From: Oscillospiraceae bacterium
GTDB taxonomy: Bacteria; Bacillota; Clostridia; Oscillospirales; Oscillospiraceae
Direction: 5' to 3'
Length of the DNA: 64,000 nt
NCBI GenBank assembly: GCA_017432615.1
Contig: JAFRIV010000013.1
Coordinates: 96,689 to 160,688, forward strand
Shown here: positions 32,087 to 58,117 of the stretch, in pieces
Numbering within the stretch: position 1 is the stretch's first letter
Layout of the letters: every line of letters begins with the position of its first letter
Program-made: the position numbers and the translations under genes
The notes under the pieces: generated by a model
The model's input: only the letters and a program-made list of their open reading frames with translations
Told to the model about the DNA's origin: nothing
Databases searched by the model: none

Positions 32087-33010
32087 CTATATGCCTCGGG
32101 CATTCCTGCTTTCCAGTGCATGGATGAGCGTTACAACCATTTCATGGCAGGGGACAGCAATCCCGTGGGCTTTCGCCCTTTCCACCACATAGCCGCTGAT
32201 GTAATCCACTTCGCTCTTCTGCCCGGTTTTTACATGGGTGTAGATCGAGGTATATCCGCCTATGCCGTTTGAAATGACCTCGTGAATACTGTCGATCACG
32301 GCTTGTTCATCAAACTGCGCGATACCCTCTGCGTTGGCGACCTCGACAGCCTCGTGGGCCATTTTCAGCATCAGGGAGTGGGCATAGGGATCTTCCAGAA
32401 TGAAGCCCTGCGCAACCTGCAAAACTGCTGTGAGGGAGGAGGAAGAGGTGTTGATGAACAGCTTTTCCCAGATCTGTTTCCGGATGGAGGCGGATACAGT
32501 GCAGGGAAAGCCGCAGGCTGTCAGCTCATCCGCCACGGCGGAGGAGTCTGTCCTGCCGCTGACAAATCCGACGGAAGTTGAGCCCGTTCCGCTGTGAAAC
32601 ACCTTTCCGGGTTCCAGAATGCAGCTTCCGTGGCGGGTCGAACCGATCAGAGCATGGTCGGCATCGACATACTGCAGGAGTCTTTTCTCGTGGCCGGCAC
32701 CATTCTGAAGTGTTAAAAGGCAGGTATTTTGCCCGATCAGTGCCCTGTTTGCCTCCAGCGCCTCTATGGTATCCATCACCCTTACAAACAGGATGACGAG
32801 ATCCATCTCCGGCAGGCCGCTGCAGGCTGAAACTGCATGGGGATGATAGAGCGTTTCTAACCCGTCCTTTTCCCTGAGAAGGATCCCCTTTTCATCCAGC
32901 ATCTTCTGTTTCTCCGGGTTGTGCCCGATCAGATAGACAGTATTGCGTTTTGAGAGATAACAGCTGAACAGGCTGCCCATTGCGCCTGCGCCAAGAACTG
33001 CAATATTCAT
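32087..33010 (-). CDS. Ketopantoate-reductase-like dehydrogenase
   Basis: A 307-residue NADP-dependent 2-dehydropantoate 2-reductase family (PanE/ApbA) protein. The Rossmann loop GAGAMG opens the protein, with 'LTLQNGAGHE' in the middle and 'RKQIWEKLFINTSSSSLTAV' supplying the catalytic Lys and Asn. It would reduce a 2-keto acid to a 2-hydroxy acid. As the last gene of a catabolic operon with no panB/panC nearby, it more likely acts on a pathway 2-keto acid than in pantothenate synthesis. The ATG at 33010 has AAGGGA upstream. Confidence 0.85.
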   Translation of the reverse strand: MNIAVLGAGAMGSLFSCYLSKRNTVYLIGHNPEKQKMLDEKGILLREKDGLETLYHPHAVSACSGLPEMDLVILFVRVMDTIEALEANRALIGQNTCLLTLQNGAGHEKRLLQYVDADHALIGSTRHGSCILEPGKVFHSGTGSTSVGFVSGRTDSSAVADELTACGFPCTVSASIRKQIWEKLFINTSSSSLTAVLQVAQGFILEDPYAHSLMLKMAHEAVEVANAEGIAQFDEQAVIDSIHEVISNGIGGYTSIYTHVKTGQKSEVDYISGYVVERAKAHGIAVPCHEMVVTLIHALESRNARGI

Positions 33011-33026
33011 ATACTTATCCCTTTTG

Positions 33027-33893
33027 TCAGGCAAAGCGGTTGGCCAGTTGGTCGATGGTGATGCCGCCCTTGCCCGACCAGTCGATCTCTACGGCGTCAA
33101 ATTCCGGTGCGCGGAAGCCGTTCAGCTTTTTGTAATCCTTCGGTTCCATGGTAAAGGCAAGGGAGGCAAGGTTTTCCTGGATCCTTTCTTTGCTGGTGCT
33201 CTTGACGATCGCACCGATCTTTTTTTCTTTCAGGATCCAGTTCAGAATGACCTGATTCTGGGTCTTCTGATATTTTTGAGAGAGCTCCAGCAAAAGAGGA
33301 TAATTTCTGCCCGCGGTGCGGTTCCGACGCAGAGGCTGGAAGCAGAAAAAGCGGATATCCTGTTCCCTGCAGTAATTCAGGATGCCGACGTCTTCACACC
33401 GTTTGCATTCCAGATTGTACAACCCCTCGCAGAAATCGAGCCCGATCTCCTGATGCAGCTGCTTTACCAGATCAATGCCTGCATTGCTAATGCCAATATA
33501 GCGTACTTTGCCCTTTGAAACCAGATCTTTGATGGCCCCGTATACCTCCGTCAAAGGAATCTCCGAAAACCACGGATGATGGACCTCCAGGCTGTCCACA
33601 TAGGAAATGCCCAGAATATCCAGGTATTCGTCCAGCTGCTTTTCAACATCGGCAGTGGAGGAGATTTTTCCTTCTAGGTTGGTGTTGATGAACAGATTGT
33701 CTCGCCCTGCGACATCGACGAATTTTCGGGTCTGCCTTACGATTTCTCCGTTTTCATACAGCATATAAAGAGACAGGTAATTCTGGCCGCCGGAAACGGA
33801 GGTCAGCAGTGCCTCCAGATCCGCATCAAAATGATCCTTGTCAATTTTCCATGTTCCGATCCCAAGGGGAAATATGCTGCTCCTGTCAATCAT
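33027..33893 (-). CDS. Aldo/keto reductase-like protein with altered tetrad
   Basis: A 288-residue TIM-barrel protein of the aldo/keto reductase family, shown by 'LGIGTWKID', 'YLDILGISYVDSLEVHHPW' and 'VRYIGISNAGIDLV'. Of the catalytic Asp-Tyr-Lys-His tetrad, Tyr (LYENGE) and His (VHHPW) are present, but the Lys position in the 'LFINTNLEGK' strand reads Asn and the Asp before the Tyr is not seen. Reductase activity may be lost or changed, perhaps to an isomerase or binding role. The ATG at 33893 has AAAGGAG. It sits 16 bases upstream of the panE-like gene. Confidence 0.8.
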   Translation of the reverse strand: MIDRSSIFPLGIGTWKIDKDHFDADLEALLTSVSGGQNYLSLYMLYENGEIVRQTRKFVDVAGRDNLFINTNLEGKISSTADVEKQLDEYLDILGISYVDSLEVHHPWFSEIPLTEVYGAIKDLVSKGKVRYIGISNAGIDLVKQLHQEIGLDFCEGLYNLECKRCEDVGILNYCREQDIRFFCFQPLRRNRTAGRNYPLLLELSQKYQKTQNQVILNWILKEKKIGAIVKSTSKERIQENLASLAFTMEPKDYKKLNGFRAPEFDAVEIDWSGKGGITIDQLANRFA

Positions 33894-33938
33894 TTTGCCA
33901 CTCCTTTCATACTCGGTTTCTGCCTCTGACAGGGCCAT

Positions 33939-34499
33939 CTATGATCTTCCGTATCGCATTTTTTTGACCTGATCATGTACAGCCATGAGAAAAGTTCTTC
34001 TCAGGCGAACGGTTTTCCATTTCTTCCCAGACGCTTTGACAAGAAGGCTTTCAAACGTCTCGGCACTTCTGTAAGATCCGTCTTTCAGGCTCACCATATA
34101 GGCCTGCTGGGGATTGATAAAGAGGTAGTGGTAGATCCCGTCCTTTGCCAGGCTGTATAAATCAGAATAGGGGATCCTCTTTTTCAGATCCCCTGCCTCT
34201 GTAACAAAACTTTCCTGATAAAAATAATAGGTGACTTTCCGGTATCTTTCCGGTGTTCCGGAGAGCGCTTTTGAAGCATCTCTCTCATACATGAAATTGG
34301 TGCTGTAGAAGAAGAACACAGCCAGGGTGATCATGACAGCTCCCCATGTTGTATCAAAGCCGACGTAAGCGGCAATGATGAGGGGAATCGCGGAAAAAAG
34401 AATCCGAAACAGCAGCCTTAGCTTTCCGTAGCACTTGTCCTGAACAAGGGCAAGCCTCAGGCAGGTCTCTTCATTGTATTCGATTTCAGCTTTTATCAT
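33939..34499 (-). CDS. YcxB-like membrane protein
   Basis: A 186-residue protein with a short N-terminal cytosolic part, two adjacent transmembrane helices (about residues 30-70) and a C-terminal YcxB-like domain ('KRIPYSDLYSLAKDGIYHYLFINPQQAYMV'-like). The function of the family is unknown. It is inserted in a catabolic operon between the CoA-transferase and the aldo/keto reductase with small gaps, so it is co-transcribed, but its role there is unclear. Confidence 0.72.
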   Translation of the reverse strand: MIKAEIEYNEETCLRLALVQDKCYGKLRLLFRILFSAIPLIIAAYVGFDTTWGAVMITLAVFFFYSTNFMYERDASKALSGTPERYRKVTYYFYQESFVTEAGDLKKRIPYSDLYSLAKDGIYHYLFINPQQAYMVSLKDGSYRSAETFESLLVKASGKKWKTVRLRRTFLMAVHDQVKKMRYGRS

Positions 34500-34521: not shown

Positions 34522-36081
34522 TCAGGAATTCTGTGCCCAGAGCTCCTTCAGGCCCATTCTGCCTGTGCTGAACAATTCTGCGGGCATCGGCTTCAGATCA
34601 TCAGCGATGAGCGGCCTGTAATCCATCTGAGCGAAGATATCCCGCTCCATGTCAATACCCGGGGCAATTTCTACCAGGGTCAGGCCGTCTTTCCGAAGTT
34701 CAAAAACACAGCGCTCGGTAATGAAAACCACGCGCTTTCCCTTTTCGATAGCGCGTTTGCCGCTGAAGGTGATTTGCTGGACCTGATTGACGAATTTCCG
34801 AATTGTACCCTGTTCCAGGACAGTTACCTTCCCGTCCGCAATCCTCACTTTGCTTTTTGCGCAGAGCGTTCCGCCGAAGACAATTTTCTTCGTCTCCTGG
34901 GAGATGTCAATAAATCCGCCGCAGCCGGTGACGCTCTTGCCGAGCTTGCTGACATTTACGTTGCCCCAAAAGTCTGTCTCGGCAGCGCTGAGGCAGGTTG
35001 CATCCAGAATGCCGCCATGGTACAGATCGTGCTGTACGGGATGGTCCAGGATGATACGGGGGTTCATCATGATGCCAGCATCAAGACCCATGACGGGAAC
35101 ACCGCCGGACTGCCCCTGCTCCAGGGAAAGGGTGATTTGCTCCCAACAGCCCTCTTCGGAGAGGATGATCGGCACACCGTTGGATACCCCAACCCCGATG
35201 TTGACGAGCATGCCGGGACGCAGTTCCATAGCCTGTCGCCTGGCGATGAATTTCCGCTCGTCGATTCCTTCTTTTGGCCACTGCATGGTGACAGGCTCGC
35301 GGCTAGCACCGCAGTAGCCGGGCCGGTAGAAATAGTCATTGCTCTGCGTCTGGTTAGGGTCTACGACAACATAATCCACCAGATAACCCGGAATTTTGAT
35401 TTTGGAGACGTCGATGGAATTCCTTTCCACCAGATATTTTACCTGAACGATCACAATGCCGCCGTTGTTTTTTGCTGCGGCAGCCATTGCGGCGACTTCG
35501 TCGTAGTGCGCCTCTTCTTCCAGGCTGATATAACCGTCTGGATCGGAGGAGGTGCCCCGAATGATTGCTACGTCGACAGGAATCGGCTTGTAGCGCAGCC
35601 ACTCTTCTCCGTCAATTTCGATCAGCTCGACCAGGTCCTCTTTGGCAGACTGATTCATCTTTCCGCCGGACTGGCGCGGGTCGACAAAAGTATCCAGGCC
35701 GATCTTCGTGATCACGCCGGGACCGTGGGCTGACATATCACGCATGAGTTGTGCCAGCACACCCTGGGGGAGATTATACGCCTCCAGTTCTTCCTGAACA
35801 GCCAGCTCTCCCATTTTTGGGCTCATGCCCCAATGCCCGCCGATGACCCGTTTGCATAATCCTTTGTGCGCAAACCTCGCAAGGCCAGTGTCGTTTTTAT
35901 TCCCTTCACCCTGAGGATGCAGCAGCGTGATGGATCGGGGCTCCCCGCTCTCCAGATAACGGTCCTCAATGGCTTTGTAAACAGCATCCGGGACCAGGCA
36001 GGCTGCACTGGAGCCGCTCACGGCGATACATTTGCTGTTCGGAATCAGTTCGGCTGCCTCTTTTGCAGTAAGAATTTTCAT
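34522..36081 (-). CDS. Family I CoA-transferase (copy A)
   Basis: A 519-residue fused alpha-beta CoA-transferase of the acetate/propionate or 3-oxoacid type. The N-terminal half has 'SGSSAACLVPDAVYKAIEDRY' and the C-terminal half has the catalytic Glu in SLEQGQSGGVP, which forms the CoA thioester intermediate. It moves CoA from a donor such as acetyl-CoA to a carboxylic acid. The ATG at 36081 has GGAAGGGA upstream. It is the fifth gene after lacI in the minus-strand TRAP module, and a clear paralogue is at 41850. Confidence 0.93.
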   Translation of the reverse strand: MKILTAKEAAELIPNSKCIAVSGSSAACLVPDAVYKAIEDRYLESGEPRSITLLHPQGEGNKNDTGLARFAHKGLCKRVIGGHWGMSPKMGELAVQEELEAYNLPQGVLAQLMRDMSAHGPGVITKIGLDTFVDPRQSGGKMNQSAKEDLVELIEIDGEEWLRYKPIPVDVAIIRGTSSDPDGYISLEEEAHYDEVAAMAAAAKNNGGIVIVQVKYLVERNSIDVSKIKIPGYLVDYVVVDPNQTQSNDYFYRPGYCGASREPVTMQWPKEGIDERKFIARRQAMELRPGMLVNIGVGVSNGVPIILSEEGCWEQITLSLEQGQSGGVPVMGLDAGIMMNPRIILDHPVQHDLYHGGILDATCLSAAETDFWGNVNVSKLGKSVTGCGGFIDISQETKKIVFGGTLCAKSKVRIADGKVTVLEQGTIRKFVNQVQQITFSGKRAIEKGKRVVFITERCVFELRKDGLTLVEIAPGIDMERDIFAQMDYRPLIADDLKPMPAELFSTGRMGLKELWAQNS

Positions 36082-36112: not shown

Positions 36113-37501
36113 TTATTTGTTGTAGCAGAGATATTCGATGCCGGTGATCCCACAGAAATGCTTCAGGACCTTTGCATATTTTCCATAGACCGTATGGAGA
36201 TGATTGGCATTGATGGTCCTGAAAAAAGCATCATAATCGATATCGGCATGAATGAACTGTGTGGGATAACTGTAATTGGTCTTGCGAAGCTCTTCCCGCG
36301 GTTTTTCAATCATTTCGCCTTCAAAACAGGTAAGAAGATACTTCCCGTCCTTTCGGATAAAGCGCGCCACAGTGACAGGACCCTTTCTGCCCACCATCTG
36401 AACGGCACCGCCCCCGGCTTCGCCGAATACATGATGGAGAAGATACGATTCCTTCAGGGCATGGTCGGGGTCTTCCGGATCCGCGTAATAGGGAGCCATT
36501 GCACCACAGTTGGCAAGGATAAATTCCTTCTCTTCTCCGCTGAAATAGCGGATATCCACAAGGCAGGAGGGCTTTCCGCCAGCACAGAGGGAAAGAACGC
36601 GCATGGTGAGTGCACCGTCACAGTCACATTCACAGGAAGTGGGGATGGGAGCTTTCTCTCCATCTGCATCCATGTTGTTGTTCAGCAGGCTTACACCCAG
36701 ACATTGCAGGACAAAATGATCGCTCATATCAGGCTGGCATTTCACACCCATAAAATCATAACAGTGCTCTTTTGCCATGTCTTTCAGGGCAAGATAGCTC
36801 CTGACCTGTTTTTCCAGCGTCGCTTCTGTGAAGAGGTCACTGAAAAAGATGGAGAAATGGTCTTTCACCCAGGAGAGATGCCGCTGAACCCGTGCCTCTT
36901 CCTGCTGCTGTGCCCGCCAGACAATTTCATACTGGTCACAGTGATCAAATTCGACGCCGAAGAGATTCTGCCACTGCGTTGGGTCTGCCACAGTGGTTCC
37001 GATCCCGATGCTCCGCCCGCCGATCATCCCGTAGCTGCTGCGTTTCAGCCCTTCCGCAACGGCAACGGCATCGAGCATGGAGGTGACGGATTCCCAGACG
37101 GAAGGATCTTCAATATCGCCGATCACACGGACGTGAGGTTTTCCCACCTGGCTCAGAAGTCCGCCTGTTGCCAGAAGGGCGACTGTGCTGGAACTGTCTT
37201 TTCGGGTGTTCCCGAAAAGAATCACAGGGTAAGGTGTTGCAGAAGCAATGCGAAAGACAAAGTTTGGCGTGCACCAGATCGGGATGTGAATGATAACCTG
37301 CGTAATCAGGCGCCTGCGGATCTCATCGGCAACAGCCAGGCCTTCCTCAATGCTGAAAACAGGTGCCGGCGCGTATACGGAATACTTTTTTTCAAGACCG
37401 GCGATCAGTTTTTCGGTTTCAGATTCTGCAATGTTCCGGCGCGTCTCGTAAAACGGAAGACGGCAGTCACCCAGATTGATGACAGCAATTTCCTTTTTCA
37501 T
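36113..37501 (-). CDS. L-fucose/arabinose-isomerase-fold protein
   Basis: A 462-residue protein with the fold of L-fucose and L-arabinose isomerases. It has an N-terminal domain ending 'IPIWCTPNFVFRIAS', a middle 'LFGNTRKDSSSTVALLATGGLL', and a C-terminal domain with 'ECDCDGALTMRVLSLCAGGKP' and 'HHVFGEAGGGAVQMVGRKGPVTVARF'. Conserved Glu, Asp and His there could bind Mn. A ketose/aldose isomerisation is likely in this operon, but the sugar is not known; members outside the named groups are often called 'fucose isomerase-like'. Confidence 0.8.
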   Translation of the reverse strand: MKKEIAVINLGDCRLPFYETRRNIAESETEKLIAGLEKKYSVYAPAPVFSIEEGLAVADEIRRRLITQVIIHIPIWCTPNFVFRIASATPYPVILFGNTRKDSSSTVALLATGGLLSQVGKPHVRVIGDIEDPSVWESVTSMLDAVAVAEGLKRSSYGMIGGRSIGIGTTVADPTQWQNLFGVEFDHCDQYEIVWRAQQQEEARVQRHLSWVKDHFSIFFSDLFTEATLEKQVRSYLALKDMAKEHCYDFMGVKCQPDMSDHFVLQCLGVSLLNNNMDADGEKAPIPTSCECDCDGALTMRVLSLCAGGKPSCLVDIRYFSGEEKEFILANCGAMAPYYADPEDPDHALKESYLLHHVFGEAGGGAVQMVGRKGPVTVARFIRKDGKYLLTCFEGEMIEKPREELRKTNYSYPTQFIHADIDYDAFFRTINANHLHTVYGKYAKVLKHFCGITGIEYLCYNK

Positions 37502-37534: not shown

Positions 37535-38803
37535 TCAGCCGAACAGACTGCTGATCTGGGGGAAGAATGCCAGCAGGATCACAACGATCAGCGACATGGA
37601 GATATACGGGATTGCCGCTTTGAACGCTTTTTGTATCGGCATATCCGCAATTTTGGATCCGAGCATCAGGCAGACTCCGTAGGGCGGTGTGATCTGCCCG
37701 ATGGCAAGGGTGATAACGATGACGATCCCCATCTGAACAGATGTGACTCCGACGGCTTCAGCGGACTTCAGAAGGATCGGCGCAAAGAGGATAATGGCCG
37801 GGACGGCGTCCATAAACGTCCCGAGGAAGAGATACAGCACGATAACAAGGAGCATAAAGATGATGCGGTTGCCGACATAGGTGCTGAAGAAATACTTGAC
37901 ATAGGCAGAAAGATTATAATATGCGAGAAGCTGGCCCATTGCGTTTGCGGCGGCAAGCGCAAACAGTGAGACGGAGTTCAGGCACAGCGTATCGACCAGC
38001 AGCGGAGGAATATCCTTCGGCTTGATGGTGCGGAAAACGACCATCCCGAGGAAGAGCGCATAGAAGCAGGCAACGCAGGCAGACTCTGTGGCAGTCATGA
38101 AGCCGCCGAGCACACCGCCAAGGATTATGACCGGCGTAAGCAGGCCGGGCAGACTTCGGAGAGTCACTTCCTTGATCTTCTTCCAGGAAGCCTTTTCATG
38201 GGCGGGAAAATGATATTTTGTATCCAGATAACGGATCATCAGCATCTGCCCAAGGCCGATCATAATACCGGGGACGATGCCTGCAATGAACAGGGCGCTG
38301 ATAGAGCAGCTTGCCACGCTGCTGTAAACCACCATCGGGATGCTCGGCGGGATAACAACACCGAGCGTAGAGGAGGAGATCGTTACGCCGACTGCCGTCT
38401 CCTGCGGATAGCCTTCATCGATCATGCCGGGGATCAGGATCTTTCCGATGCCTGCGGTATCAGCCTGGGAAGAACCGGAAATGCCGGCAAAGACCATGGA
38501 AACGAGAACGTTGGCATAAGCAGTGCCGCCCTTGATATGCCCGACGAAGGTCACGCAGAAATCAACGAGCTGCTGGGAGATGTTGCCGATGTTCATCAGG
38601 TTGGCTGCCATAATAAACATAGGGACGGCTAGCAGCGTAAAGGAGTTCAGACCGCTTACCATACGCTGCATGACGGTAATCAGTTCCACATTCGGAATAA
38701 AGGCCATACCGAACAGCGTTGTGGCGACCATGCCGTATCCGATCGGGAGCCCCATCAGCAGGAGGACAATGAAGAGAACAACGCTGATCACCATGATCGT
38801 CAT
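37535..38803 (-). CDS. dctM: TRAP transporter large permease (module A)
   Basis: A 422-residue DctM/TRAP-M protein with about 12 transmembrane helices. Motifs 'LAVPMFIMAANLM', 'FAGISGSSQADTAGIGK' and 'GVVIPPSIPMVVY' are typical. It carries Na-driven solute import. It overlaps the upstream dctQ as ATGA. The solute is probably an organic acid. Confidence 0.95.
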   Translation of the reverse strand: MTIMVISVVLFIVLLLMGLPIGYGMVATTLFGMAFIPNVELITVMQRMVSGLNSFTLLAVPMFIMAANLMNIGNISQQLVDFCVTFVGHIKGGTAYANVLVSMVFAGISGSSQADTAGIGKILIPGMIDEGYPQETAVGVTISSSTLGVVIPPSIPMVVYSSVASCSISALFIAGIVPGIMIGLGQMLMIRYLDTKYHFPAHEKASWKKIKEVTLRSLPGLLTPVIILGGVLGGFMTATESACVACFYALFLGMVVFRTIKPKDIPPLLVDTLCLNSVSLFALAAANAMGQLLAYYNLSAYVKYFFSTYVGNRIIFMLLVIVLYLFLGTFMDAVPAIILFAPILLKSAEAVGVTSVQMGIVIVITLAIGQITPPYGVCLMLGSKIADMPIQKAFKAAIPYISMSLIVVILLAFFPQISSLFG

Positions 38804-39324
38804 GATTTACTGCCCTCCGCATCTGCCTGCTCAAGGAGCTTGTCGGCTTCATTTTTAATGGCACGGGTTGAAGGATCGTCGATGAATTTCAAAAAGGCCT
38901 CCAGCACATACAGCGTACTTGTGGCGCCGGAAATCGGCAGACACAGCCAGAGCCAGATCCTGCTGACGTTGAACATGGAACTCAGGTGCCAGCTCTTGAA
39001 AAGGATGCAGAGGCGGACGCCATGAACCAGCATGATAACACTGATGGCGAGGAGAATGCAGAGACAGAGAAATTCGTTGATCCAGAACGCTTTGCCCTTC
39101 AGCTTTTCTGCAAAACCGGTAAAACGGTAGTGCTCATATCGGCGCAGCATGATCGGAGAACCCATGAATGCTGTCCACAGAAAGCAGATCCTTGCAAATT
39201 CCTCAGTAAAATAAGCAGGAAACGGTGTAAAACGGGCGATTACCTGATAACCGACCATCAGAATAAAGCCGCTCAGCACGACGCAGCCAACAACGGTCTG
39301 GATCTTCATAATGACATCATTCAT
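38800..39324 (-). CDS. dctQ: TRAP transporter small permease (module A)
   Basis: A 174-residue TRAP-Q protein with four helices and the central 'FARICFLWTAFMGSPIMLRRYEHYRF' pattern. The ATG at 39324 has no ribosome site nearby. A strong GGAGGG sits six bases before an in-frame ACG at 39354, ten codons earlier, giving a natural-looking N-terminus 'KPLIKAFEKMNDV'. The real start may be that ACG or a mutated ATG. It couples to dctM by overlap. Confidence 0.9.
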   Translation of the reverse strand: MNDVIMKIQTVVGCVVLSGFILMVGYQVIARFTPFPAYFTEEFARICFLWTAFMGSPIMLRRYEHYRFTGFAEKLKGKAFWINEFLCLCILLAISVIMLVHGVRLCILFKSWHLSSMFNVSRIWLWLCLPISGATSTLYVLEAFLKFIDDPSTRAIKNEADKLLEQADAEGSKS

Positions 39325-41587: not shown

Positions 41588-41647
41588 ATCTTCTAGTTCC
41601 AGATTCCAGAAATTCAGACGGCAATCGATTTCCTCTTCGCTAATATC

Positions 41648-41676
41648 AATATACTACAGTAAATCGAATAATGCAA
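41648..41676 (-). promoter_or_regulatory. Promoter of the minus-strand lacI-TRAP operon
   Basis: On the minus strand, TTGCAT, 17 bases, then TATATT, 61 bases upstream of lacI. Confidence 0.65.
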
Positions 41677-41759
41677 TCTCGCAAATTAGACAAAAAATCA
41701 GCACATGTTTTGTGCAATATTAACAAAAACCGGCAATTATTTTTTTACAAAATGCCTAA

Positions 41760-41788
41760 TAGACAAAAAAGAAACTTTTTGATAAAAT
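41760..41788 (+). promoter_or_regulatory. Promoter of the plus-strand CoA-transferase operon
   Basis: TAGACA, 17 bases, then TAAAAT. The palindrome at 41802-41819 lies just past the expected transcription start, the usual place for a repressor roadblock. Confidence 0.65.
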
Positions 41789-41801
41789 ACAGACCAAGAA
41801 G

Positions 41802-41819
41802 AATGAAAACGTTTTCATT
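41802..41819. promoter_or_regulatory. 18-bp palindromic operator (LacI/CcpA cre type)
   Basis: AATGAAAACGTTTTCATT is a perfect palindrome with the central CG typical of LacI-family sites. The core TGAAAACGTTTTCA also fits the catabolite-responsive element consensus TGWAANCGNTNWCA, so either the local LacI protein or CcpA could bind it. Confidence 0.85.
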
Positions 41820-48945: not shown

Positions 48946-48947
48946 AA

Positions 48948-48974
48948 CGGAGAAACGGATTTACCGTTTCTCCG
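48948..48974. terminator. Hairpin between convergent genes
   Basis: CGGAGAAACGG and CCGTTTCTCCG are perfect 11-bp arms with a 5-base loop. The right arm overlaps the end of the minus-strand isomerase gene. No clear T-run is present on either side. Confidence 0.55.
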
Positions 48975-50886: not shown

Positions 50887-50920
50887 AAAGACAATATCCT
50901 TGTTTTGAGGGAGGAATTAT

Positions 50921-51688
50921 ATGGGAAGGGTTCTGGCAGTAACAGGAGGCAGCAGGGGAATCGGGTTTGGAATCGCAAAGCGTTTTGCGGAAGACGGATA
51001 TCAGGTGGCAATCCTGGATATAAATGCGGAGGCGGACTATCGATTCAATCTTAACATTCTGGACGAAATGGGCGCAGACTGGTTTTATCTGCAGGGTGAT
51101 ACCCGCATCAGGGAGGACAGAGAACAATTTGTGTCGGAAATCGTGGCACGTTTCGGAAGAATTGACGTGCTTGTCAATAATGCCGGCGTGGCGCCAAAAG
51201 TGCGAACAGATGTCCTGGATATGACAGAGGAAAGCTTTGATTATGTTGTCGGTACAAACCTGAAAGGAACGATGTTCATGACACAGATCGTTGCCAAACA
51301 GATGCTCCGACAGGAATGGACAGGTGTGAAAAGAGGGACAATCGTTAATATCGGTTCGGCATCTGCAACAGTTTCATCCTCGAATCGCTGCGAATACTGC
51401 GTCTCAAAAGCAGGGGTTATGATGCTGACAAGTGTGTATGCTGAACGGCTTGCAGCAGAAGGAATCATGGTTCATGAGATCCGGCCAGGTGTAATCGACA
51501 CAGATATGACGAAAGTTGTCCATGAAAAATATACGCGTCTGATTGCAGAAGGCCAGTTTCCCATAGCACGATGGGGAACGCCGGAAGACGTTGCATCGGT
51601 TGTGAGTGTAGTTTGTGATGATCGTTATATCTACACAACCGGAAACTACATTGATGTGGACGGGGGGTTCCACATCAGAAAACTGTAA
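50921..51688 (+). CDS. SDR oxidoreductase (copy 1)
   Basis: A 255-residue short-chain dehydrogenase with TGGSRGIG as the cofactor loop, NNAGV, a catalytic Ser in 'NIGSAS', and Tyr/Lys in YCVSK. The end 'TTGNYIDVDGGFHIRKL' is shared with the paralogue at 54795. It is a 3-oxoacyl reductase or hydroxyacid/alcohol dehydrogenase. It is co-transcribed with lacI and the MaoC genes. Confidence 0.93.
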   Translation: MGRVLAVTGGSRGIGFGIAKRFAEDGYQVAILDINAEADYRFNLNILDEMGADWFYLQGDTRIREDREQFVSEIVARFGRIDVLVNNAGVAPKVRTDVLDMTEESFDYVVGTNLKGTMFMTQIVAKQMLRQEWTGVKRGTIVNIGSASATVSSSNRCEYCVSKAGVMMLTSVYAERLAAEGIMVHEIRPGVIDTDMTKVVHEKYTRLIAEGQFPIARWGTPEDVASVVSVVCDDRYIYTTGNYIDVDGGFHIRKL

Positions 51689-51707
51689 AACAGGAAGGAG
51701 AATAGCA

Positions 51708-52148
51708 GTGGATAAACTGAGTCTGACAGAAAAGGAAAAAACCGTCGAGTCAATTCCAATGGGGCTGCGTGCCTACTACTCAAAAACAATCACCGGCGCT
51801 GATGCCGCAATTTTCGCCGGAGTAACGGGAGATTTCCAGCCTCTTACGTTCAACGAAGCCTTGGCAAGGGAAAATGGGATGGAGCGCTGTCCCATTCAAA
51901 ATGAACTTCTTGCCAGTTATACCTGGCCGGTATCCACACAGATTGCAAGTCCGGGCGCAGTGACGATTGGGCAGGAACTTACTTTTTATAAACCTGCTTT
52001 TATCGGTGATACTGTTACTGTAGTCGGAGAGGTAAACAAAAAAGTCCCGGAGAAAAAATTTGTCTATGTCCAGACAACGATTTACAATCAAAATGATGAA
52101 GTGCTCGCAGATGGTTTTGTGCTTGAACTGATGCGGGTACACTCCTGA
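51708..52148 (+). CDS. MaoC-fold hydratase-like protein, 1 of 3
   Basis: A 146-residue hot-dog-fold protein like (R)-specific enoyl-CoA hydratases. The usual GDxxPxH motif reads GDFQPLT, so the catalytic His is replaced by Thr, and the HGM segment is altered too. It may be a structural, substrate-binding subunit. The GTG at 51708 has AAGGAG before it; a longer frame upstream runs inside the SDR gene. Confidence 0.8.
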   Translation: MDKLSLTEKEKTVESIPMGLRAYYSKTITGADAAIFAGVTGDFQPLTFNEALARENGMERCPIQNELLASYTWPVSTQIASPGAVTIGQELTFYKPAFIGDTVTVVGEVNKKVPEKKFVYVQTTIYNQNDEVLADGFVLELMRVHS

Positions 52149-52160
52149 AGGAGGTGCAGT

Positions 52161-52592
52161 ATGCAGGTCATATATCAGAAAAGAATACCGGAAGAACTGG
52201 AAATAGGAGCATTTTCGCTGTTCCCCAAAACTGTCAGTGATTCTGATGTGATGATGTTTTGCGGAGAGACAGGAGATCTCAGTCCCATCTATCTGGATGC
52301 CCGGTTTGCCGGAAATACTTCACTCGAGGCTCAGACAGTTCCCCCAATGCTGATTGCGTCCATGCTCGGCGGAGCGGTCTATCGCCTTCTCAGCCCGGAT
52401 GCGTATCCGCTGAAAAGAGAATTCGAACTGCTGAAACCTGTGCATGTAGGTGATACTTTGACGGCACGCGCTGAGATTACAGGTGTTGACAAAGAAAAAC
52501 GACAGGTTACTCTGCTTCTGGAAGCATACAACAGTGAAAAAGAGCTGGTAATGAAGGGCACAAGCCTTGAACAGCTCGTCGTCAGAAAGTGA
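52161..52592 (+). CDS. MaoC-fold hydratase-like protein, 2 of 3
   Basis: A 143-residue hot-dog-fold protein. The catalytic motif reads GDLSPIY, with Tyr in place of His, so it is likely inactive alone. The C-terminal 'ELLKPVHVGDTLTARAEI' strands are typical. AAGGAGG precedes the start. Confidence 0.8.
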   Translation: MQVIYQKRIPEELEIGAFSLFPKTVSDSDVMMFCGETGDLSPIYLDARFAGNTSLEAQTVPPMLIASMLGGAVYRLLSPDAYPLKREFELLKPVHVGDTLTARAEITGVDKEKRQVTLLLEAYNSEKELVMKGTSLEQLVVRK

Positions 52593-52599
52593 GGAGTGT

Positions 52600-53040
52600 A
52601 TGGAAGCTGTAGCATTCAACCGAAAGACAGTAAACGATATTCAGGTTGGGGACAGGGCTTATTTCGCCAGAACTGTGACAGAAGCTGATGTGATGATGTT
52701 TGCTCAACTCAGTGGAGATTTTGCCCCTCAGCATGTCAGCAAGGCGTTTGGAGAGACTACGCTGTTCGGCAGCAGGATTGCCCACGGGATGCTGACGGTC
52801 GGCCTTACTGCACCGGTCCTGACCAAGCTGTGCGGGGACGCATCAAGAACGGTATTTCAGAATATCCGTTTCCGGAGCGCTGTCATACTGGGAGATACCG
52901 TAGATGTAGAAGGTGTAGTTACGGAAATCGATCCGGATGAAGGAATCGTCAGTGTCGATATTACGGCAAAAAGGCACAATGCCGCAGAAGGAGATCGCCC
53001 GTTTATCACCGGTATTTTCCGCCAGACTCTCAAGATCTGA
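52600..53040 (+). CDS. MaoC-fold enoyl-CoA hydratase, 3 of 3
   Basis: A 146-residue hot-dog-fold protein with an intact catalytic pair, Asp and His in GDFAPQH, and the supporting 'GSRIAHGMLTVG'. It should hydrate or dehydrate an enoyl-CoA in an (R)-specific manner, perhaps together with one or both of the two preceding subunits. The ATG at 52600 has GAGGAG upstream. Confidence 0.9.
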   Translation: MEAVAFNRKTVNDIQVGDRAYFARTVTEADVMMFAQLSGDFAPQHVSKAFGETTLFGSRIAHGMLTVGLTAPVLTKLCGDASRTVFQNIRFRSAVILGDTVDVEGVVTEIDPDEGIVSVDITAKRHNAAEGDRPFITGIFRQTLKI

Positions 53041-53057
53041 GAAAGCAGAGGGAAAGC

Positions 53058-53459
53058 ATGATCCGTAAGCTGAATATTTACAAAGAACTGGAAGGGACGG
53101 AATTTCCCGCCGGACGGAGGACGAGGGTATTTGTCGGAGCTGATAGTCCACTTCAGGCAGATCGTTATGTCGTGGGGACGGCAGATGTTCATCCCGGAGG
53201 AGGAGTCCCGGAACATGCCCATGAAACAGAAGAAACCTATATTATTCTTTCCGGGACCGGTGTTATGCTCGTAGATGGAGAGGAAGTGCCAATCGGGCCA
53301 AATGATGTGATCTATCTCGAACCGATGCAGCCTCATGAGTTGCGGAACACTGGAGATACCGAGATGCGAACAATGTTTGTTTATGCTCCTAAAATGGTAG
53401 TCGACCACTGGGCGCAGGAGACCAGCGGTGAACTGAAAATGCGAAATCAGGATTCATAA
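53058..53459 (+). CDS. Single-domain cupin protein
   Basis: A 133-residue cupin with metal motif 'PEHAHETEETYIILSGTG' (two His and Glu) and a third His in 'QPHELRNTG'. It may be an isomerase, a hydrolase or a metal-binding protein of unknown substrate. It lies between the MaoC trio and the RpiB-like gene with 17- and 21-base gaps. Confidence 0.83.
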   Translation: MIRKLNIYKELEGTEFPAGRRTRVFVGADSPLQADRYVVGTADVHPGGGVPEHAHETEETYIILSGTGVMLVDGEEVPIGPNDVIYLEPMQPHELRNTGDTEMRTMFVYAPKMVVDHWAQETSGELKMRNQDS

Positions 53460-53480
53460 AAAACGGAAAGGAAAGAGAAA

Positions 53481-53951
53481 ATGAAAAAAGTGATTCTTGC
53501 CAGCGAGATGAGTTCTGTGGGATTAAAGGAGGCAGTAAAAAAACGGCTGGAGAACGCAGGATATGAGGTAACAGATGTGGGACAGCAGGTCGGAGGTGAT
53601 CCGGTGCTGTATTACACCGCAGCAGAACGTGTCGCACGGGCGATTCAAAACAAGGAATTTGAGCGTGGAATAGTGATTTGCGGTACAGGAGCGGGAGTTA
53701 GTATGATTGCCAATAAATTCAGAGGTGTCTACTGTGTAGCATGTGAGAGCGTGTTTACAGCAGAAAAAATCTCTCTGATCAACAATGCAAATGTGCTGGC
53801 AATGGGAGAACGTGTAGTCAGCTACGATATGGGAGGCGAGATGGCGGAAAAGTTCCTCGCAGGAAAATGGTGCGAAGGATTTGCGCCGGAACGCAAAAAG
53901 AATAATGAAAACGGGTTTCAAAGACTGCAGGAGCTGGAGGAACAGTTCTAA
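53481..53951 (+). CDS. RpiB/LacAB-like sugar-phosphate isomerase
   Basis: A 156-residue protein of the RpiB/LacAB/AlsB family. The active-site Cys loop CGTGAGVSM and 'NNANVLAMGERVV' are present. The N-terminal DHAG-type motif of RpiB is replaced by 'SEMSSVG', so substrate or mechanism may differ. It converts a sugar phosphate or a related acid; the exact compound is unknown. Confidence 0.85.
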   Translation: MKKVILASEMSSVGLKEAVKKRLENAGYEVTDVGQQVGGDPVLYYTAAERVARAIQNKEFERGIVICGTGAGVSMIANKFRGVYCVACESVFTAEKISLINNANVLAMGERVVSYDMGGEMAEKFLAGKWCEGFAPERKKNNENGFQRLQELEEQF

Positions 53952-54002
53952 CTGACAGTCAGCTGAAAATAACAGGATTATTGTATTGAGGGAGAAAAAA
54001 CA

Positions 54003-54761
54003 ATGAGCGAATTTATCCAAACCGAAATTCATGATAAAGTGCTTTTGCTGCAGATCACTTATGAAAAAACATTAAACTGCCTGAATAACGATATTCTGGG
54101 AGAAATTGCCGAAACACTCCGGGCGTTCAACAGAAATCCTCAATTGCGTGCACTGGTGCTCACTGGTGCAGGAAGGTCCTTCTGCACAGGCGCGGATCTC
54201 AAGGTCTTTACCGAATTAAGCCAGGAGGACTGTGTCGATTACAGTGTTGATTATGAGGAAGACATCTTTCGGATACTCTCATCCTCACGCAAGCCGACGA
54301 TTGCGGCAGTCAATGGTTATGCATTAGGTGGGGGAATGGAACTTGCGCTTGCCTGTGATTTCCGAATCGGAGTAGAAAAATGTCAGTTCAGTGCACCGGA
54401 ATATAATTTCGGATGGGTCCCGGGCTGGGGAGGAGTGCATCGCCTTGCAACTTTAGTCGGGCCGAATAAAGCGAAAGAAATTCTTTTGCTGAGAAAGAAA
54501 ATACGCGGTCCTGAGGCACTGGAAATTGGCCTTCTCAACGAATTGGTGGATGATCCGGAGCAGCTGATTGCCCGCGCTCTTGAGATGGCAGCCTCACTTG
54601 CAGAGCTGAACCCTCTCACAGTGACTTATACCAAAACGATCCTGAATGATTTCTATGTTCCACCCTATGATTCCCTTGCACAGGGACTGACAAACAGTAT
54701 CACATCGAAATCTCCTTATGCAAAAGCCCGCGTGGAGGAATTTTTCAACAGGAAAAAATAA
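54003..54761 (+). CDS. Enoyl-CoA hydratase/isomerase (crotonase family)
   Basis: A 252-residue crotonase with the oxyanion-hole segment 'GRSFCTGADLKVF' and 'NGYALGGGMELALACDFRIG'. Both catalytic Glu positions are conserved ('SAPEYNFGWVPGWGG' and 'KAKEI'), as in enoyl-CoA hydratase. It acts on a CoA thioester, supporting a CoA-bound pathway after the CoA-transferase step. Confidence 0.93.
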   Translation: MSEFIQTEIHDKVLLLQITYEKTLNCLNNDILGEIAETLRAFNRNPQLRALVLTGAGRSFCTGADLKVFTELSQEDCVDYSVDYEEDIFRILSSSRKPTIAAVNGYALGGGMELALACDFRIGVEKCQFSAPEYNFGWVPGWGGVHRLATLVGPNKAKEILLLRKKIRGPEALEIGLLNELVDDPEQLIARALEMAASLAELNPLTVTYTKTILNDFYVPPYDSLAQGLTNSITSKSPYAKARVEEFFNRKK

Positions 54762-54794
54762 GAACCTTCAAAAATAGAAACAGGAGAATATCAA

Positions 54795-55562
54795 ATGGAG
54801 AAAACTGCAATTGTAACGGGGTCCAGCAGAGGAATCGGCTTTGCTACGGCAAAACAGCTTTGCAGCGAAGGATACAACCTTGTCATGGTGGCGACCGGGA
54901 CACGCGAGAAAAATCAGGCTGCAATTGCCGAAGCAGAAACTTTCGGCACGAAGGTTCTGTATGTGCAGGCGAGCATTTCTGATCATGATGACAGGCTCCG
55001 TATTGTGGAGGAGACAGTTCGCGCATTTGGGAGAATAGATGTACTTGTTAACAATGCCGGAGTTGCTCCAAAGGAAAGAGCGGACCTGCTTACGATGTCT
55101 GAGGAGAGCTTTGACCGCGTGGTCGGAACCAATACAAAAGGCAACATGTTTCTAACGCAGGCAGTTGCCAATCAGATGATTCGCCAGGAGATGGTAAACG
55201 GAAGAAGAGGTGTAATTGTGAACATCTCAAGCTGTTCTGCAGTGGTAAGCAGCACGAATAGAGGAGAGTACTGCGTATCAAAGGCAGGAGTCTCTATGCT
55301 GACAACACTCTATGCGGATCGCCTGGCACCGGAAGGAATCCTGGTACATGAGATTCGTCCTGGTGTTATTGATACAGATATGACGGGTACCGTACACGAG
55401 AAATATGACCGGTTGATTGCAGCAGGAGAATTCCCGATTGCACGCTGGGGGACACCTCAGGACATCGCCAATGCTGTCAGCCTGCTCGTTTCTGACAAGC
55501 TGATGTATACGACAGGAAATTATATTGACGTAGACGGCGGATTTCATATCAGGAGACTGTGA
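54795..55562 (+). CDS. SDR oxidoreductase (copy 2)
   Basis: A 255-residue short-chain dehydrogenase, clearly paralogous to the one at 50921: both have 'VNNAGVAPK', a YCVSKAG catalytic pair, 'HEIRPGVIDTDMT' and an identical-style C-terminus 'TTGNYIDVDGGFHIR'. The pair probably oxidises or reduces two hydroxyls of one ring or chain. Confidence 0.93.
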   Translation: MEKTAIVTGSSRGIGFATAKQLCSEGYNLVMVATGTREKNQAAIAEAETFGTKVLYVQASISDHDDRLRIVEETVRAFGRIDVLVNNAGVAPKERADLLTMSEESFDRVVGTNTKGNMFLTQAVANQMIRQEMVNGRRGVIVNISSCSAVVSSTNRGEYCVSKAGVSMLTTLYADRLAPEGILVHEIRPGVIDTDMTGTVHEKYDRLIAAGEFPIARWGTPQDIANAVSLLVSDKLMYTTGNYIDVDGGFHIRRL

Positions 55563-55565
55563 GAA

Positions 55566-57485
55566 ATGAACATCCGGGAAATCATAGAGGTAAATACCTG
55601 CATCGTCGGCTCCGGGGCGGCGGGCTATAATGCAGCGGACCGGCTCTGGCAGTATGGTCAGCATTCTATTCTGCTCATCAGTGAAAATATAGAAGGCGGA
55701 ACAAGCCGAAATACAGGAAGCGATAAGCAGACGTATTATAAGCTGACGCTGTCTTCGGATACACCGGACAGTGTCTATGAGATGGCGAAGACCCTGTATG
55801 ACGGGAAATGTGTTGACGGCGATCTTGCACTGTGTGAAGCTGCCCTCAGTGTCCCGTCCTTTCTGCGGCTTGTAGAGCTTGGGGTGCCGTTTCCGGTGAA
55901 CCGTTACGGCGAATATGTCGGATATAAGACGGATCATGACCCCAGAAATCGCGCAACCAGTGTTGGCCCTTATACGAGCCGGGAAATGACCCGTGTACTG
56001 GAACAGCAATGCCGGGAATATGGAATTCCGGTAAGAGATCATCTTCAGGTGATCCGGATCCTTTCTGACGGGGAAAAGGTTTATGGGCTGCTTTGCCTGG
56101 ATCGGGCAGCAGAAGATGAATTTGTCCTGATCAAGTGCCCGAATGTTATTTATGCCACCGGAGGACCGGCTGCTATTTACCGAAATTGTGTTTATCCGGC
56201 TTCTCAGTTCGGTGCTACTGGCCTTGCACTGGAGGCAGGGGCACTGGGGAAAAATCTGACGGAATGGCAGTTCGGGCTAGCTTCTGTCCGTCCCCGCTGG
56301 AATGTGTCCGGCACTTACATGCAGGTGCTGCCGCGCGTTGTCTCTACAGACCAGAATGGAAGCGATGAACGCGAATTTCTGCTGGACTTCTTTTCCAATC
56401 CAGAGGAAATGCTCTCGATGCTCTTCCTGAAGGGATATCAGTGGCCTTTCGATGTACGAAAGGTTGACGGAGGATCTTCTGTCATCGATATTCTGGTCTA
56501 TCTGGAACTCTGCAAGGACAGGAGAGTGTTTCTGGACTTTCGAAGGGATGCTGCAGACGGCAGATTCTCTTTTGAAAAACTTTCAGAAGAAGCGCGGGAA
56601 TATCTCACAAGGGCGAATGCACTGATGCCACTCCCGATAGATAGACTGAAAGTGATGAACCAGCCGGCAATCGATTTTTATCTGGATAACGGGGTGGATC
56701 TTACTAAGGAAATGCTGGAGATTTCACTTTGCGCACAGCACAACAACGGCGGAATCGATATCGATTATCATTGGCAGAGCTGTGTAGAAGGGCTGTTTGT
56801 GGTCGGTGAGGCGGCAGGGAGTCATGGCGTTTATCGACCGGGAGGATCAGCACTGAATGCTGGACAGGTCGGTTCTACCCGAGCTGCACTCTATATAGCG
56901 AAACGAAGAGAGAAAGTACAGGCGGATGATGCAGTTTTCTCTGCACTGGCGGAGAAGACTGCTGCTGAGATGAGCGGGATTGCGGAAGCGGTCTACGGCA
57001 GTGAGAGCAATATCATGGAACTGAAAGACAGAGTCTCCGGGCTTATGAGCACAGTAGCCGGGGCAATCCGAAACAGCGATAAAATCAGGGAAGCATTGCA
57101 GGAGGTCGAACTGCTGTCTGATAGATTTAATGAACAGGTGAGGATTGATAAGCCCAGTCAGCTGCAATGGGTATATCGACTCAGAGACATGCTGATTTCG
57201 ATTCGCTGTTATATGACGGCTATGCTGGATTATGCCGCTTCCGGCGGAAAGAGTCGTGGGAGTGCCCTTTATACTGATTTGAACGGGAAAAAACCATATG
57301 ATCAGCTTCCGGATGAATTCATCTTTCAAGTGGATGATGGAAAACTGGACGAGATGATCCAGACCGTCGGATATGATGGGAAAGAGTGTTCTATACAGTG
57401 GAGATCGCGACGCCCGATTCCTGAGAACAATGATTTTTTCGAAGTGGTTTGGAAAAGCTATCGGGAATCCGGAAATATTGACTGA
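55566..57485 (+). CDS. Fumarate-reductase-type flavoprotein
   Basis: A 639-residue FAD enzyme of the fumarate reductase/aspartate oxidase superfamily. 'TCIVGSGAAGYNAADRL' is the FAD loop, with 'GGTSRNTGSDKQ', 'IYATGGPAAIYRN', 'HNNGGIDID' and 'GEAAGSHGVYRPGGSALN' as further FAD contacts. There is no signal peptide or haem site, so it is a cytosolic dehydrogenase or enoate reductase rather than a respiratory subunit. Its ribosome site lies in the tail of the preceding SDR gene. Confidence 0.9.
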   Translation: MNIREIIEVNTCIVGSGAAGYNAADRLWQYGQHSILLISENIEGGTSRNTGSDKQTYYKLTLSSDTPDSVYEMAKTLYDGKCVDGDLALCEAALSVPSFLRLVELGVPFPVNRYGEYVGYKTDHDPRNRATSVGPYTSREMTRVLEQQCREYGIPVRDHLQVIRILSDGEKVYGLLCLDRAAEDEFVLIKCPNVIYATGGPAAIYRNCVYPASQFGATGLALEAGALGKNLTEWQFGLASVRPRWNVSGTYMQVLPRVVSTDQNGSDEREFLLDFFSNPEEMLSMLFLKGYQWPFDVRKVDGGSSVIDILVYLELCKDRRVFLDFRRDAADGRFSFEKLSEEAREYLTRANALMPLPIDRLKVMNQPAIDFYLDNGVDLTKEMLEISLCAQHNNGGIDIDYHWQSCVEGLFVVGEAAGSHGVYRPGGSALNAGQVGSTRAALYIAKRREKVQADDAVFSALAEKTAAEMSGIAEAVYGSESNIMELKDRVSGLMSTVAGAIRNSDKIREALQEVELLSDRFNEQVRIDKPSQLQWVYRLRDMLISIRCYMTAMLDYAASGGKSRGSALYTDLNGKKPYDQLPDEFIFQVDDGKLDEMIQTVGYDGKECSIQWRSRRPIPENNDFFEVVWKSYRESGNID

Positions 57486-58117
57486 TGACAAAAGATGTAT
57501 TACCCGGCAGAAGGATATCCGTGATAGAGAAGGACCTGATGCGGTTTTCGAGAGATGGCTGCAGGCTGTTTATTGCAATTGATGGGCGATGTGGCTGCGG
57601 GAAAAGTCGGTTGGGTGAAGAACTTGCTGAATTGCTGAACGGGAATCTTTTCCATATGGATGACTATTATCTTCCGTTTCGTGACAGGCAGGAAAACTGG
57701 GAGAATATCCCAGCCGGGAACATGGATCTGATCCGATTTCAAAAAGAAGTGCTCGAACCGGCCGGAAACGGACAGGAAGTCTTCTACAGGGCTTTCTCCT
57801 GCCCAAAAAGATGTTATCTTCCGGAGAAGAGAATGGTGCCAAGACAGGTGAATATTGTGGAAGGAAGTTATTCCCAGCATCCTGTTCTTTCAGCAGCCTA
57901 CGATGTGAAGCTCTTTGTTACAGCAGGCAGAGCTGTACAGAAAGAACGTCTTCGTGCGCGGGAAGGAGCTCATTTCAGTGCTTTTGAAACAATCTGGATT
58001 CCGATGGAGGAAAGATATTTCCAGCATTTCTCTATTGAAGAACTCGCCGACTGCGTGATTAAAACGGATACGCAACCTGTTGCCTGGAACTGGAAGACAG
58101 AAGAAAGCCGATGCTGA
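57485..58117 (+). CDS. Uridine-kinase-like P-loop kinase (copy 2)
   Basis: A 210-residue kinase with GRCGCGKS as Walker A and the same blocks as the copy at 22296: 'GNLFHMDDYYLPF', 'IPAGNMDL' and 'EGSYSQHP'. Its start overlaps the flavoprotein stop (TGATG), so it is translationally coupled to the catabolic operon and probably phosphorylates a metabolite there. The substrate is unknown. Confidence 0.87.
   Translation: MTKDVLPGRRISVIEKDLMRFSRDGCRLFIAIDGRCGCGKSRLGEELAELLNGNLFHMDDYYLPFRDRQENWENIPAGNMDLIRFQKEVLEPAGNGQEVFYRAFSCPKRCYLPEKRMVPRQVNIVEGSYSQHPVLSAAYDVKLFVTAGRAVQKERLRAREGAHFSAFETIWIPMEERYFQHFSIEELADCVIKTDTQPVAWNWKTEESRC

Follow-up and report, generated by a model that had tools for sequence, protein, structure and literature searches.

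A divergent TRAP transporter and CoA-transferase island in an Oscillospiraceae genome, probably for sugar-acid breakdown, and a related operon in Escherichia coli

Gene content and layout of the island

We analysed a 64,000-nucleotide (nt) stretch of an Oscillospiraceae genome (GenBank assembly GCA_017432615.1, 2.40 Mb, 87% complete; contig JAFRIV010000013.1, here C1), referred to below as the window. The subject is a gene island at positions 32087-58117, in which two modules, each with a LacI-family regulator, a tripartite ATP-independent periplasmic (TRAP) transporter and a coenzyme A (CoA)-transferase, diverge from one control region. Gene families were called from the listing of open reading frames (ORFs) and from Pfam and NCBIfam profile scans of the window proteins. 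Pfam matches in the island comprise LacI (two), DctP, DctQ and DctM (two each), CoA_trans (two), Shikimate_dh_N, KduI/IolB, Ribul_P_3_epim, LacAB_rpiB, SDR (short-chain dehydrogenase/reductase; two), MaoC (three), ECH_1 and FAD_binding_2. A preliminary description of this DNA had named two LacI regulators, two sets of TRAP P-Q-M genes, two family I CoA-transferases and a series of plus-strand enzymes, and all of these were found again as long, closely packed ORFs with Pfam or NCBIfam matches. It had omitted a cupin gene (53058-53459) and a minus-strand TIM-barrel epimerase gene (48961-49779); its LacI, TRAP and CoA-transferase genes of the minus-strand module stand, but three genes are to be added to that module, for a FucI-like isomerase, an aldo/keto reductase and a PanE/ApbA-like reductase. 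The families, the gene order, most of the catalytic residues and the recurrence reported below are read directly from sequences. The features are as follows (subscripts p and m denote the plus- and minus-strand modules).

32087-33010, minus: PanE/ApbA-like 2-oxoacid reductase (Pfam ApbA, 111.9 bits; TIGR00745, 226.4 bits against a cut-off of 141.35)
33027-33938, minus: aldo/keto reductase (Pfam Aldo_ket_red)
33939-34499, minus: small protein, no family in the Pfam scan
34522-36081, minus: family I CoA-transferase CoAT_m, YdiF-like (CoA_trans, 99.5 bits; 43% identical to E. coli YdiF; Glu aligned)
36113-37501, minus: L-fucose-isomerase (FucI)-like protein (Fucose_iso_C, N1 and N2 above cut-offs; below NCBIfam equivalog cut-offs)
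37535-38803, minus: TRAP DctM (DctM_m; Pfam)
38800-39324, minus: TRAP DctQ (DctQ_m; Pfam)
39469-40461, minus: TRAP solute-binding protein DctP_m (Pfam; nearest solved chains 4nx1, 4p47 and 4pc9)
40499-41587, minus: LacI-family regulator LacI_m (Pfam)
41802-41819, no strand: palindrome, LacI-type (or cre-like) operator candidate (sequence scan)
41850-43400, plus: family I CoA-transferase CoAT_p (CoA_trans, 89.5 bits; 46% identical to the CoA-transferase of the E. coli operon described below; tree)
43487-44506, plus (ORF opens at 43451): TRAP solute-binding protein DctP_p, nearest the hexuronate-bound group (Pfam, structure-chain matches, alignment)
44634-45515, plus (ORF opens at 44544): AroE/YdiB-type dehydrogenase paralogue (Shikimate_dh_N; 32% identical to YdiB)
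45512-46135, plus: TRAP DctQ (DctQ_p; Pfam)
46125-47432, plus: TRAP DctM (DctM_p; Pfam; 45% identical to DctM of the E. coli operon)
47485-48237, plus: KduI/IolB-family isomerase (Pfam; IolB equivalog, 80.1 against a cut-off of 205)
48253-48945, plus: ribulose-phosphate 3-epimerase (Rpe) family protein (Pfam, NCBIfam)
48961-49779, minus: TIM-barrel epimerase/isomerase, nearest solved relative TM_0416 (Pfam, NCBIfam, structure-chain match)
49885-50886, plus: LacI-family regulator LacI_p (Pfam)
50921-51688, plus: SDR1, PRK12745 family (297 bits against a cut-off of 250)
51615-52148, plus: MaoC1, without the catalytic His (Pfam, alignment); true start probably downstream, e.g. at 51759
52161-52592, plus: MaoC2, without the catalytic His (Pfam, alignment)
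52600-53040, plus: MaoC3, Asp/His pair kept (Pfam, alignment)
53058-53459, plus: cupin (Pfam; 5 of 80 FAD-protein loci hold a relative)
53481-53951, plus: RpiB/LacAB-family isomerase (Pfam, 127.6 bits; TIGR00689 subfamily, 102.2 against 88.3)
54003-54761, plus: crotonase-family protein (ECH), both hydratase Glu positions kept (Pfam, alignment)
54795-55562, plus: SDR2, PRK12745 family (320.5 bits against a cut-off of 250)
55566-57485, plus: FAD protein, own clade of the fumarate reductase / L-aspartate oxidase superfamily (Pfam, NCBIfam, alignment)
57485-58117, plus: kinase-like protein, weak matches only (no Pfam match; best NCBIfam score 51.6 bits against a cut-off of 173)

Both CoA-transferases carry the CoA_trans domain and keep a Glu aligned with that of YdiF, which we take to be the catalytic residue of family I CoA-transferases, and they thus belong to this family. 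Of the three MaoC-fold proteins counted in the preliminary description, all are present but MaoC3 alone keeps the D..H pair of MaoC hydratases; we take this pair to be catalytic, and the two kept Glu of the crotonase to be the hydratase positions. The kinase it had named has weak matches only, with the scores listed above. The AroE paralogue is 32% identical to YdiB and 26.5% to AroE, and falls below the NCBIfam cut-offs for AroE (best aroE model, 203.7 against 252; TIGR00507, 193.4 against 200.2). Three other curated assignments fall short: the IolB and IolO equivalogs of the myo-inositol iol pathway (80.1 against 205 and 128.8 against 300 bits), and the SftI equivalog of the sulfoquinovose isomerase route (58.6 against 700 bits). 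The FAD protein matches FAD_binding_2 at 67.8 bits (cut-off 20.4), which places it in the superfamily, but it is not FrdA, SdhA or NadB proper, its best score against the NCBIfam equivalog and subfamily cut-offs being 110.4 against 718 bits.

The modules diverge from 41588-41849, as had been proposed: the LacI_m gene ends at 41587 and the ATG of the plus-strand CoA-transferase lies at 41850, leaving a gap of 262 nt. Within this gap is a perfect 18-nt palindrome, AATGAAAACGTTTTCATT, at 41802-41819, whose 14-nt core occurs twice in the window at up to two mismatches, against 0.33 expected. The palindrome fits a LacI-type operator and is a candidate for one; presumably it fits a cre box as well, and it therefore does not tell the identity of the regulator. 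A count of promoter-like sites gave no signal (16 found against 20.2 expected). The plus side is made up of three units, 41850-48945 (plus), 48961-49779 (minus) and 49885-58117 (plus), the minus-strand epimerase gene splitting the other two, and a terminator-like stem of 12 pairs lies at 48947-48975 on the minus strand. Spacers within units are -11 to 83 nt as called, except those between DctQ_m and DctP_m (144 nt) and between DctP_p and the AroE paralogue (127 nt). G+C content is even across the whole window, at 0.45-0.53 in 2-kb steps; hence, there is no compositional sign of recent acquisition.

An E. coli operon with the same core

A tblastn search of plasmid records with the FAD protein led to a stretch of E. 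coli DNA between ytfB and rplI, and we found the same stretch on a chromosome; the FucI-like protein gave no match in the plasmid records. The E. coli operon (L184:7044-16827 and L187:7045-15323) reads TetR regulator, SDR, TIM-barrel isomerase, crotonase, CoA-transferase, FAD protein and TRAP Q, M and P. In other strains, CFT073 included, a major facilitator superfamily (MFS) gene replaces the TRAP genes; the best NCBIfam match of its product is the D-galactonate transporter subfamily, at 314 bits, below the cut-off of 395. The five-enzyme stretch is present, at 80% cover or more, in 3095 of 5426 complete E. coli genomes. At the same cover, the TRAP trio is found in 1439 E. coli genomes, with weaker or partial TRAP matches in 1107 more, and the MFS gene in 1673; the sum of 1439 and 1673, 3112, is near 3095, as a comparison of totals and not genome by genome. 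Strain K-12 is without the operon: its rplI-ytfB interval holds yjfZ and the ytfA pseudogene, a region of which matches residues 83-215 of the operon's TetR protein at 100% and is a remnant of it.

Proteins of the same families in the island are 31-46% identical to those of the operon: CoAT_p 46%, the FAD protein 37%, SDR2 37%, the crotonase 31%, DctM_p 45% (DctM_m 34%) and DctP_p 31% (DctP_m 26%). The operon's CoA-transferase is 39% identical to YdiF. Unlike the island, the operon is without AroE, IolB, Rpe, RpiB, MaoC, cupin and kinase genes, and has a TetR instead of a LacI regulator. Its annotation consists of family names only, and we found no description of the island or the operon in the openly licensed literature, searched by title and the start of the abstract and without the older E. 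coli locus tags.

A tree was built of 27 CoA-transferases. The four linked to an FAD protein share a group with CoAT_m, YdiF and a protein from Paraburkholderia, to which none of the 20 taken from relatives' loci belongs. Support for the group is 91/85, under the star mark; the FAD-link label needs two changes on the tree, a number as low in 3 of 500 shuffles. A Paraburkholderia caribensis plasmid (L193:1832-9181) carries genes for a MaoC protein, a TetR regulator, a CoA-transferase 49% identical to CoAT_p and a protein of the DHDPS family, together with a TIM-barrel protein and an MFS protein that are 54% and 22% identical, respectively, to those of the E. coli operon. This locus, too, may serve a sugar acid.

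Conservation among relatives and neighbourhoods of the FAD protein

Conservation was counted in genome samples drawn evenly from larger groups (the order, the class and relatives). The AroE paralogue was found in 1 of 245 genomes of the order (E ≤ 1e-45) and the IolB-like protein in 1 of 391 genomes of the class (E ≤ 1e-35), in both cases the genome of the window itself. The FucI-like protein has no close copies, its five occurrences among the 245 (E ≤ 1e-20) being its own genome and four others at 24-28% identity. Again including the own genome, MaoC2 was found in 24 of 391 genomes (others at 25-33% identity), the crotonase in 33 of 149 relatives (others at 28-38%, bar two that are short and partial, at 41% and 50%), CoAT_p in 23 of 245 (E ≤ 1e-110; identities reaching 54%) and the FAD protein in 33 of 245 (E ≤ 1e-60). 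The preliminary description had looked to co-occurrence of the genes in related genomes. The whole island was found in none of the other genomes sampled, but its core of CoA-transferase, crotonase, SDR, FAD protein, TIM-barrel enzyme and TRAP transporter recurs as the E. coli operon and, more loosely, in two loci found with the FAD protein (L057 and L103). Thus, the exact island is rare; its kernel is not.

From at least 583 relatives of the FAD protein in a GTDB scan we took the best 80 together with their flanks, which extend to 10 kb either way, or less where the contig ends sooner. A neighbour was counted when tblastn gave E ≤ 1e-10; several seeds were drawn from the searched loci (e.g. 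L071, L076 and L105) and match themselves. ORFs of fetched loci came from a simple ORF caller rather than a gene finder, and some gene names were given by eye. These loci, from Clostridia, spirochaetes and actinomycetes, resemble the island in the pairing of SDR and FAD protein and in LacI and cupin genes. A relative of SDR2 is present in 66 of the 80, a cupin in five, an AroE relative in three (L064, L075 and L071) and a crotonase in one. They are unlike the island in their OYE-type flavoproteins (44 of 80), zinc-dependent alcohol dehydrogenases (18 of 80) and IlvD-type dehydratases (13 of 80), and only four have a CoA-transferase near the FAD gene, of family I in L057 and L103 and CaiB-type in L054 and L071. 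CoA-transferase, crotonase and FAD protein stand together in L057; L103 combines FAD protein, CoA-transferase, TRAP, SDR, TIM-barrel enzyme and LacI; and L071 has AroE, SDR, TIM-barrel enzyme, LacI and FAD protein genes with MaoC-like and CaiB-like genes assigned by eye. The CoA-transferase-linked FAD proteins are scattered over four places in the FAD tree, which was built by a quick method and its grouping read from the drawn tree. A classical uronate marker lies within 10 kb of the FAD gene in 15 of the 80 loci; the independent cases are fewer, because ten of these are five Halanaerobium and five Cellulomonadaceae loci.

Two other arrangements were seen among these loci. Two Oscillibacter metagenome-assembled genomes (L064:146-13759 and L075:8268-21240) have an AroE paralogue, SDR, FAD protein and TRAP genes with two glycyl radical enzymes and an activase-like gene. 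L064 additionally has a cupin, and one of its two glycyl radical enzymes passes the general PFL2-3 model, neither passing any named equivalog. In L105:5034-11929 and similar clostridial operons, an IlvD-type dehydratase, an OYE-type flavoprotein, a zinc-dependent alcohol dehydrogenase, an SDR and the FAD protein stand together, in some with a Liv-type ABC transporter (by eye).

Candidate substrate, proposed route and alternatives

The best solved relatives of DctP_p are 4x8r, 4n8y, 4n15, 4ln5 and 4mhf, and it is 35% identical to 4x8r (103 of 297 positions). Of these, 4X8R is listed as holding glucuronate and 4N8Y galacturonate (PMC11668362), and 4MHF (Bpro_3107) is given as binding D-glucuronate and D-galacturonate (PMC7660916). 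The carboxylate ligands of the hexuronate group, two Arg and one Asn, are all kept in DctP_p, which has an Asp at the variable site. Set against the Asn/Gln/Glu/Asp of the STM3169 group on the sugar side, it keeps Asn, Glu and Asp and has His for Gln, STM3169 itself not being in the alignment; 4x8r has Thr-His at the site where DctP_p differs from that group. As a positive control we took a DctP of the same genome whose gene lies on contig C14, about 3.5 kb from that for a UxaC; it, too, had 4n8y, 4x8r and 4n15 at the top. The relatives of DctP_m are, in order, 4nx1, 4p47, 4pc9 and 4nq8, then 4xfe and 4x8r. The evidence thus points to a hexuronate-like acid as the ligand of DctP_p. The preliminary description had named quinate, shikimate or a sugar acid as possible substrates; since DctP_p is nearest to hexuronate-bound TRAP proteins, a sugar acid is the better supported, and quinate and shikimate are no longer first choices.

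The island resembles the hexuronate TRAP systems (STM3169 and the Bpro_3107 group) in this binding protein and its Arg, Arg and Asn ligands, and differs from them in that no UxaC or UxuA match was found on contig C1; matches to PF02614 and PF03786 are on C13, C14, C23 and C42. UxaC (three matches) and UxuA are thus encoded elsewhere in the genome, and the island is therefore likely to serve another sugar acid of that size, or to give it a different fate.

We propose that the island probably serves the uptake of a sugar acid and its breakdown via CoA-linked intermediates. The earlier proposal of an acid-import island with CoA-thioester chemistry is supported by these data, and we found no named pathway for it. 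In the reaction order that we infer, the plus-strand TRAP DctPQM would import a hexuronate-like acid, and the IolB, Rpe, RpiB and TIM-barrel isomerases and epimerases, with the AroE-type and SDR dehydrogenases, would convert it to keto acids. A thioester would arise when the family I CoA-transferase passes CoA to an acid intermediate, the donor being acetyl-CoA or a similar compound. Dehydration, hydration or cleavage of this thioester may next fall to the crotonase and to MaoC3, which perhaps forms a complex with MaoC1 and MaoC2, the two without the His; the FAD protein may reduce or form a C=C bond adjoining a carboxylate. Such a route would stand apart from the UxaC/UxuA route also present in the genome. 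The part common to E. coli would be SDR, TIM-barrel enzyme, crotonase, CoA-transferase, FAD protein and an acid transporter, with AroE, IolB, Rpe, RpiB, MaoC and kinase as putative local additions. At close to an even chance, we tentatively favour the reading that the locus is inducible and serves the CoA-linked catabolism of one or two sugar acids of hexuronate or aldonate size, with a core common to E. coli.

Several observations weigh against this reading. The crystal ligands of TRAP proteins can be co-purified and non-native, as PMC11668362 notes, and the DctP argument rests on rank, because DctP_m also matches 4xfe and 4x8r lower down. With UxaC and UxuA already in the genome, plain hexuronates need no second route. 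As noted, the plus side is three units and the third has its own LacI; hence, it is only as something we infer that the three are regulated, or act, jointly. By BLAST, the window's TIM-barrel protein is unmatched by that of the E. coli operon, and the operon's DctQ matches DctQ_m only (27%) and not DctQ_p. The crotonase and CoAT_p have closer relatives outside the operon (up to 38% over full length and 54%, respectively). Loci of relatives with CoAT_p-type enzymes contain, by eye and among the matches listed, genes resembling acyl-CoA dehydrogenase, thiolase, electron-transfer flavoprotein (ETF) and 4-hydroxybutyryl-CoA dehydratase; because they look like acyl-CoA oxidation loci, CoAT_p homology alone is silent on the substrate. 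Within the 10 kb searched, 76 of the 80 FAD loci, several of them short, are without a match to either CoA-transferase seed, and the commoner partners are SDR and OYE; none of the 40 Pfam-scanned window proteins is an OYE. Finally, Arg424 of the FAD protein aligns with an Arg of L-aspartate oxidase and is invariant in 17 of 17 aligned sequences, but Gln391 sits at the position of its His, an invariant His392 following one residue on; we take the compared His and Arg to be active-site residues of L-aspartate oxidase. A carboxylate site in the FAD protein is therefore likely, and no more than that.

The strongest alternative is that two or three unrelated operons, for one acid each, happen to be neighbours: one of TRAP, CoA-transferase, IolB and Rpe, one of LacI, SDR, MaoC and FAD protein, and the minus-strand module. 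The separate LacI regulators, the three plus-side units, the convergent gene at 48961-49779 and the terminator-like stem noted above all fit this, as does a locus (L061) with parts of the third unit (SDR1 70%, LacI_p 42%, cupin 52% and FAD protein 58% identical) and no CoA-transferase found near them. However, the E. coli operon unites CoA-transferase, crotonase, FAD protein, SDR and TRAP, which are parts of the first and third units, and we consider unrelated operons rather unlikely.

Catabolism of quinate or shikimate appears improbable. Here, the AroE/YdiB-type enzyme and the SDRs would oxidise the ring, CoA would be loaded, and MaoC, crotonase and FAD proteins would dehydrate and reduce the product in the direction of cyclohexane carboxylates. 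The AroE paralogue is indeed nearer YdiB than AroE, AroE-family genes occur in the three FAD loci named above, and in K-12 ydiB-aroD adjoins the gene for the YdiF CoA-transferase, which is 48% identical to CoAT_p and 43% to CoAT_m. That E. coli cluster (ydiB-aroD-ydiF-ydiO) is like the island in placing a YdiB/AroE-type dehydrogenase near a family I CoA-transferase, but it has aroD, acyl-CoA dehydrogenase and ETF genes, and no TRAP or MaoC gene is annotated there. As a main interpretation, quinate or shikimate is weakened by three findings: DctP_p groups with hexuronate binders; the search of the genome, 87% complete, gave no type I dehydroquinate dehydratase (type II was not searched); and the E. 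coli operon has no AroE and an alternative transporter closest to the D-galactonate subfamily. In the alignment with AroE, the paralogue also differs at some residues that we take to be on the substrate side. Anaerobic breakdown of inositol, or of an acid derived from it, is suggested by the IolB-like, IolO-like (TM_0416) and RpiB/Rpe-like enzymes. The Thermotoga inositol route uses IolM, IolN and IolO, and the island shares with it a TIM-barrel epimerase nearest TM_0416, but the IolB and IolO scores lie below the curated cut-offs, no IolN was among the matches listed for 20 scanned proteins, and the DctP proteins are of acid-binding kinds; we regard this as very improbable.

Taken further, the sugar-acid reading would make the island part of an unnamed CoA-dependent, partly reductive sugar-acid route, with a kernel in many E. 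coli that have interchangeable TRAP and MFS importers, enlarged in a gut Clostridium by AroE-type, IolB-type and MaoC enzymes; this is possible if somewhat doubtful. If true, a five-enzyme pathway in more than half of the complete E. coli genomes (the 3095 of 5426 above), and its enlarged clostridial form, would be one for which we found no assigned substrate. Such a CoA-linked path would be distinct from the routes through UxaC/UxuA, aldarates and inositol, would provide the gut with a new source of short acids, and would explain what a large unassigned clade of the fumarate reductase superfamily does. E. coli makes the pathway testable, with K-12 as a ready-made negative strain.

The genes on either side of the island include three further observations. 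Downstream, at window positions 58279-62122, a GH94 protein (1026 bits to 1v7v, chitobiose phosphorylase) is followed by a protein of the phosphohexomutase family; both were considered as pathway members and excluded, the GH94 protein being nearest chitobiose phosphorylase. Upstream, positions 28925-32005 encode a GH3 protein in which the C-terminal domain stands ahead of the N-terminal domain, and positions 26055-28208 an unusual fusion of a DUF4405-like part, an FGE-sulfatase (SUMF1) domain and a C-terminal flavodoxin domain.

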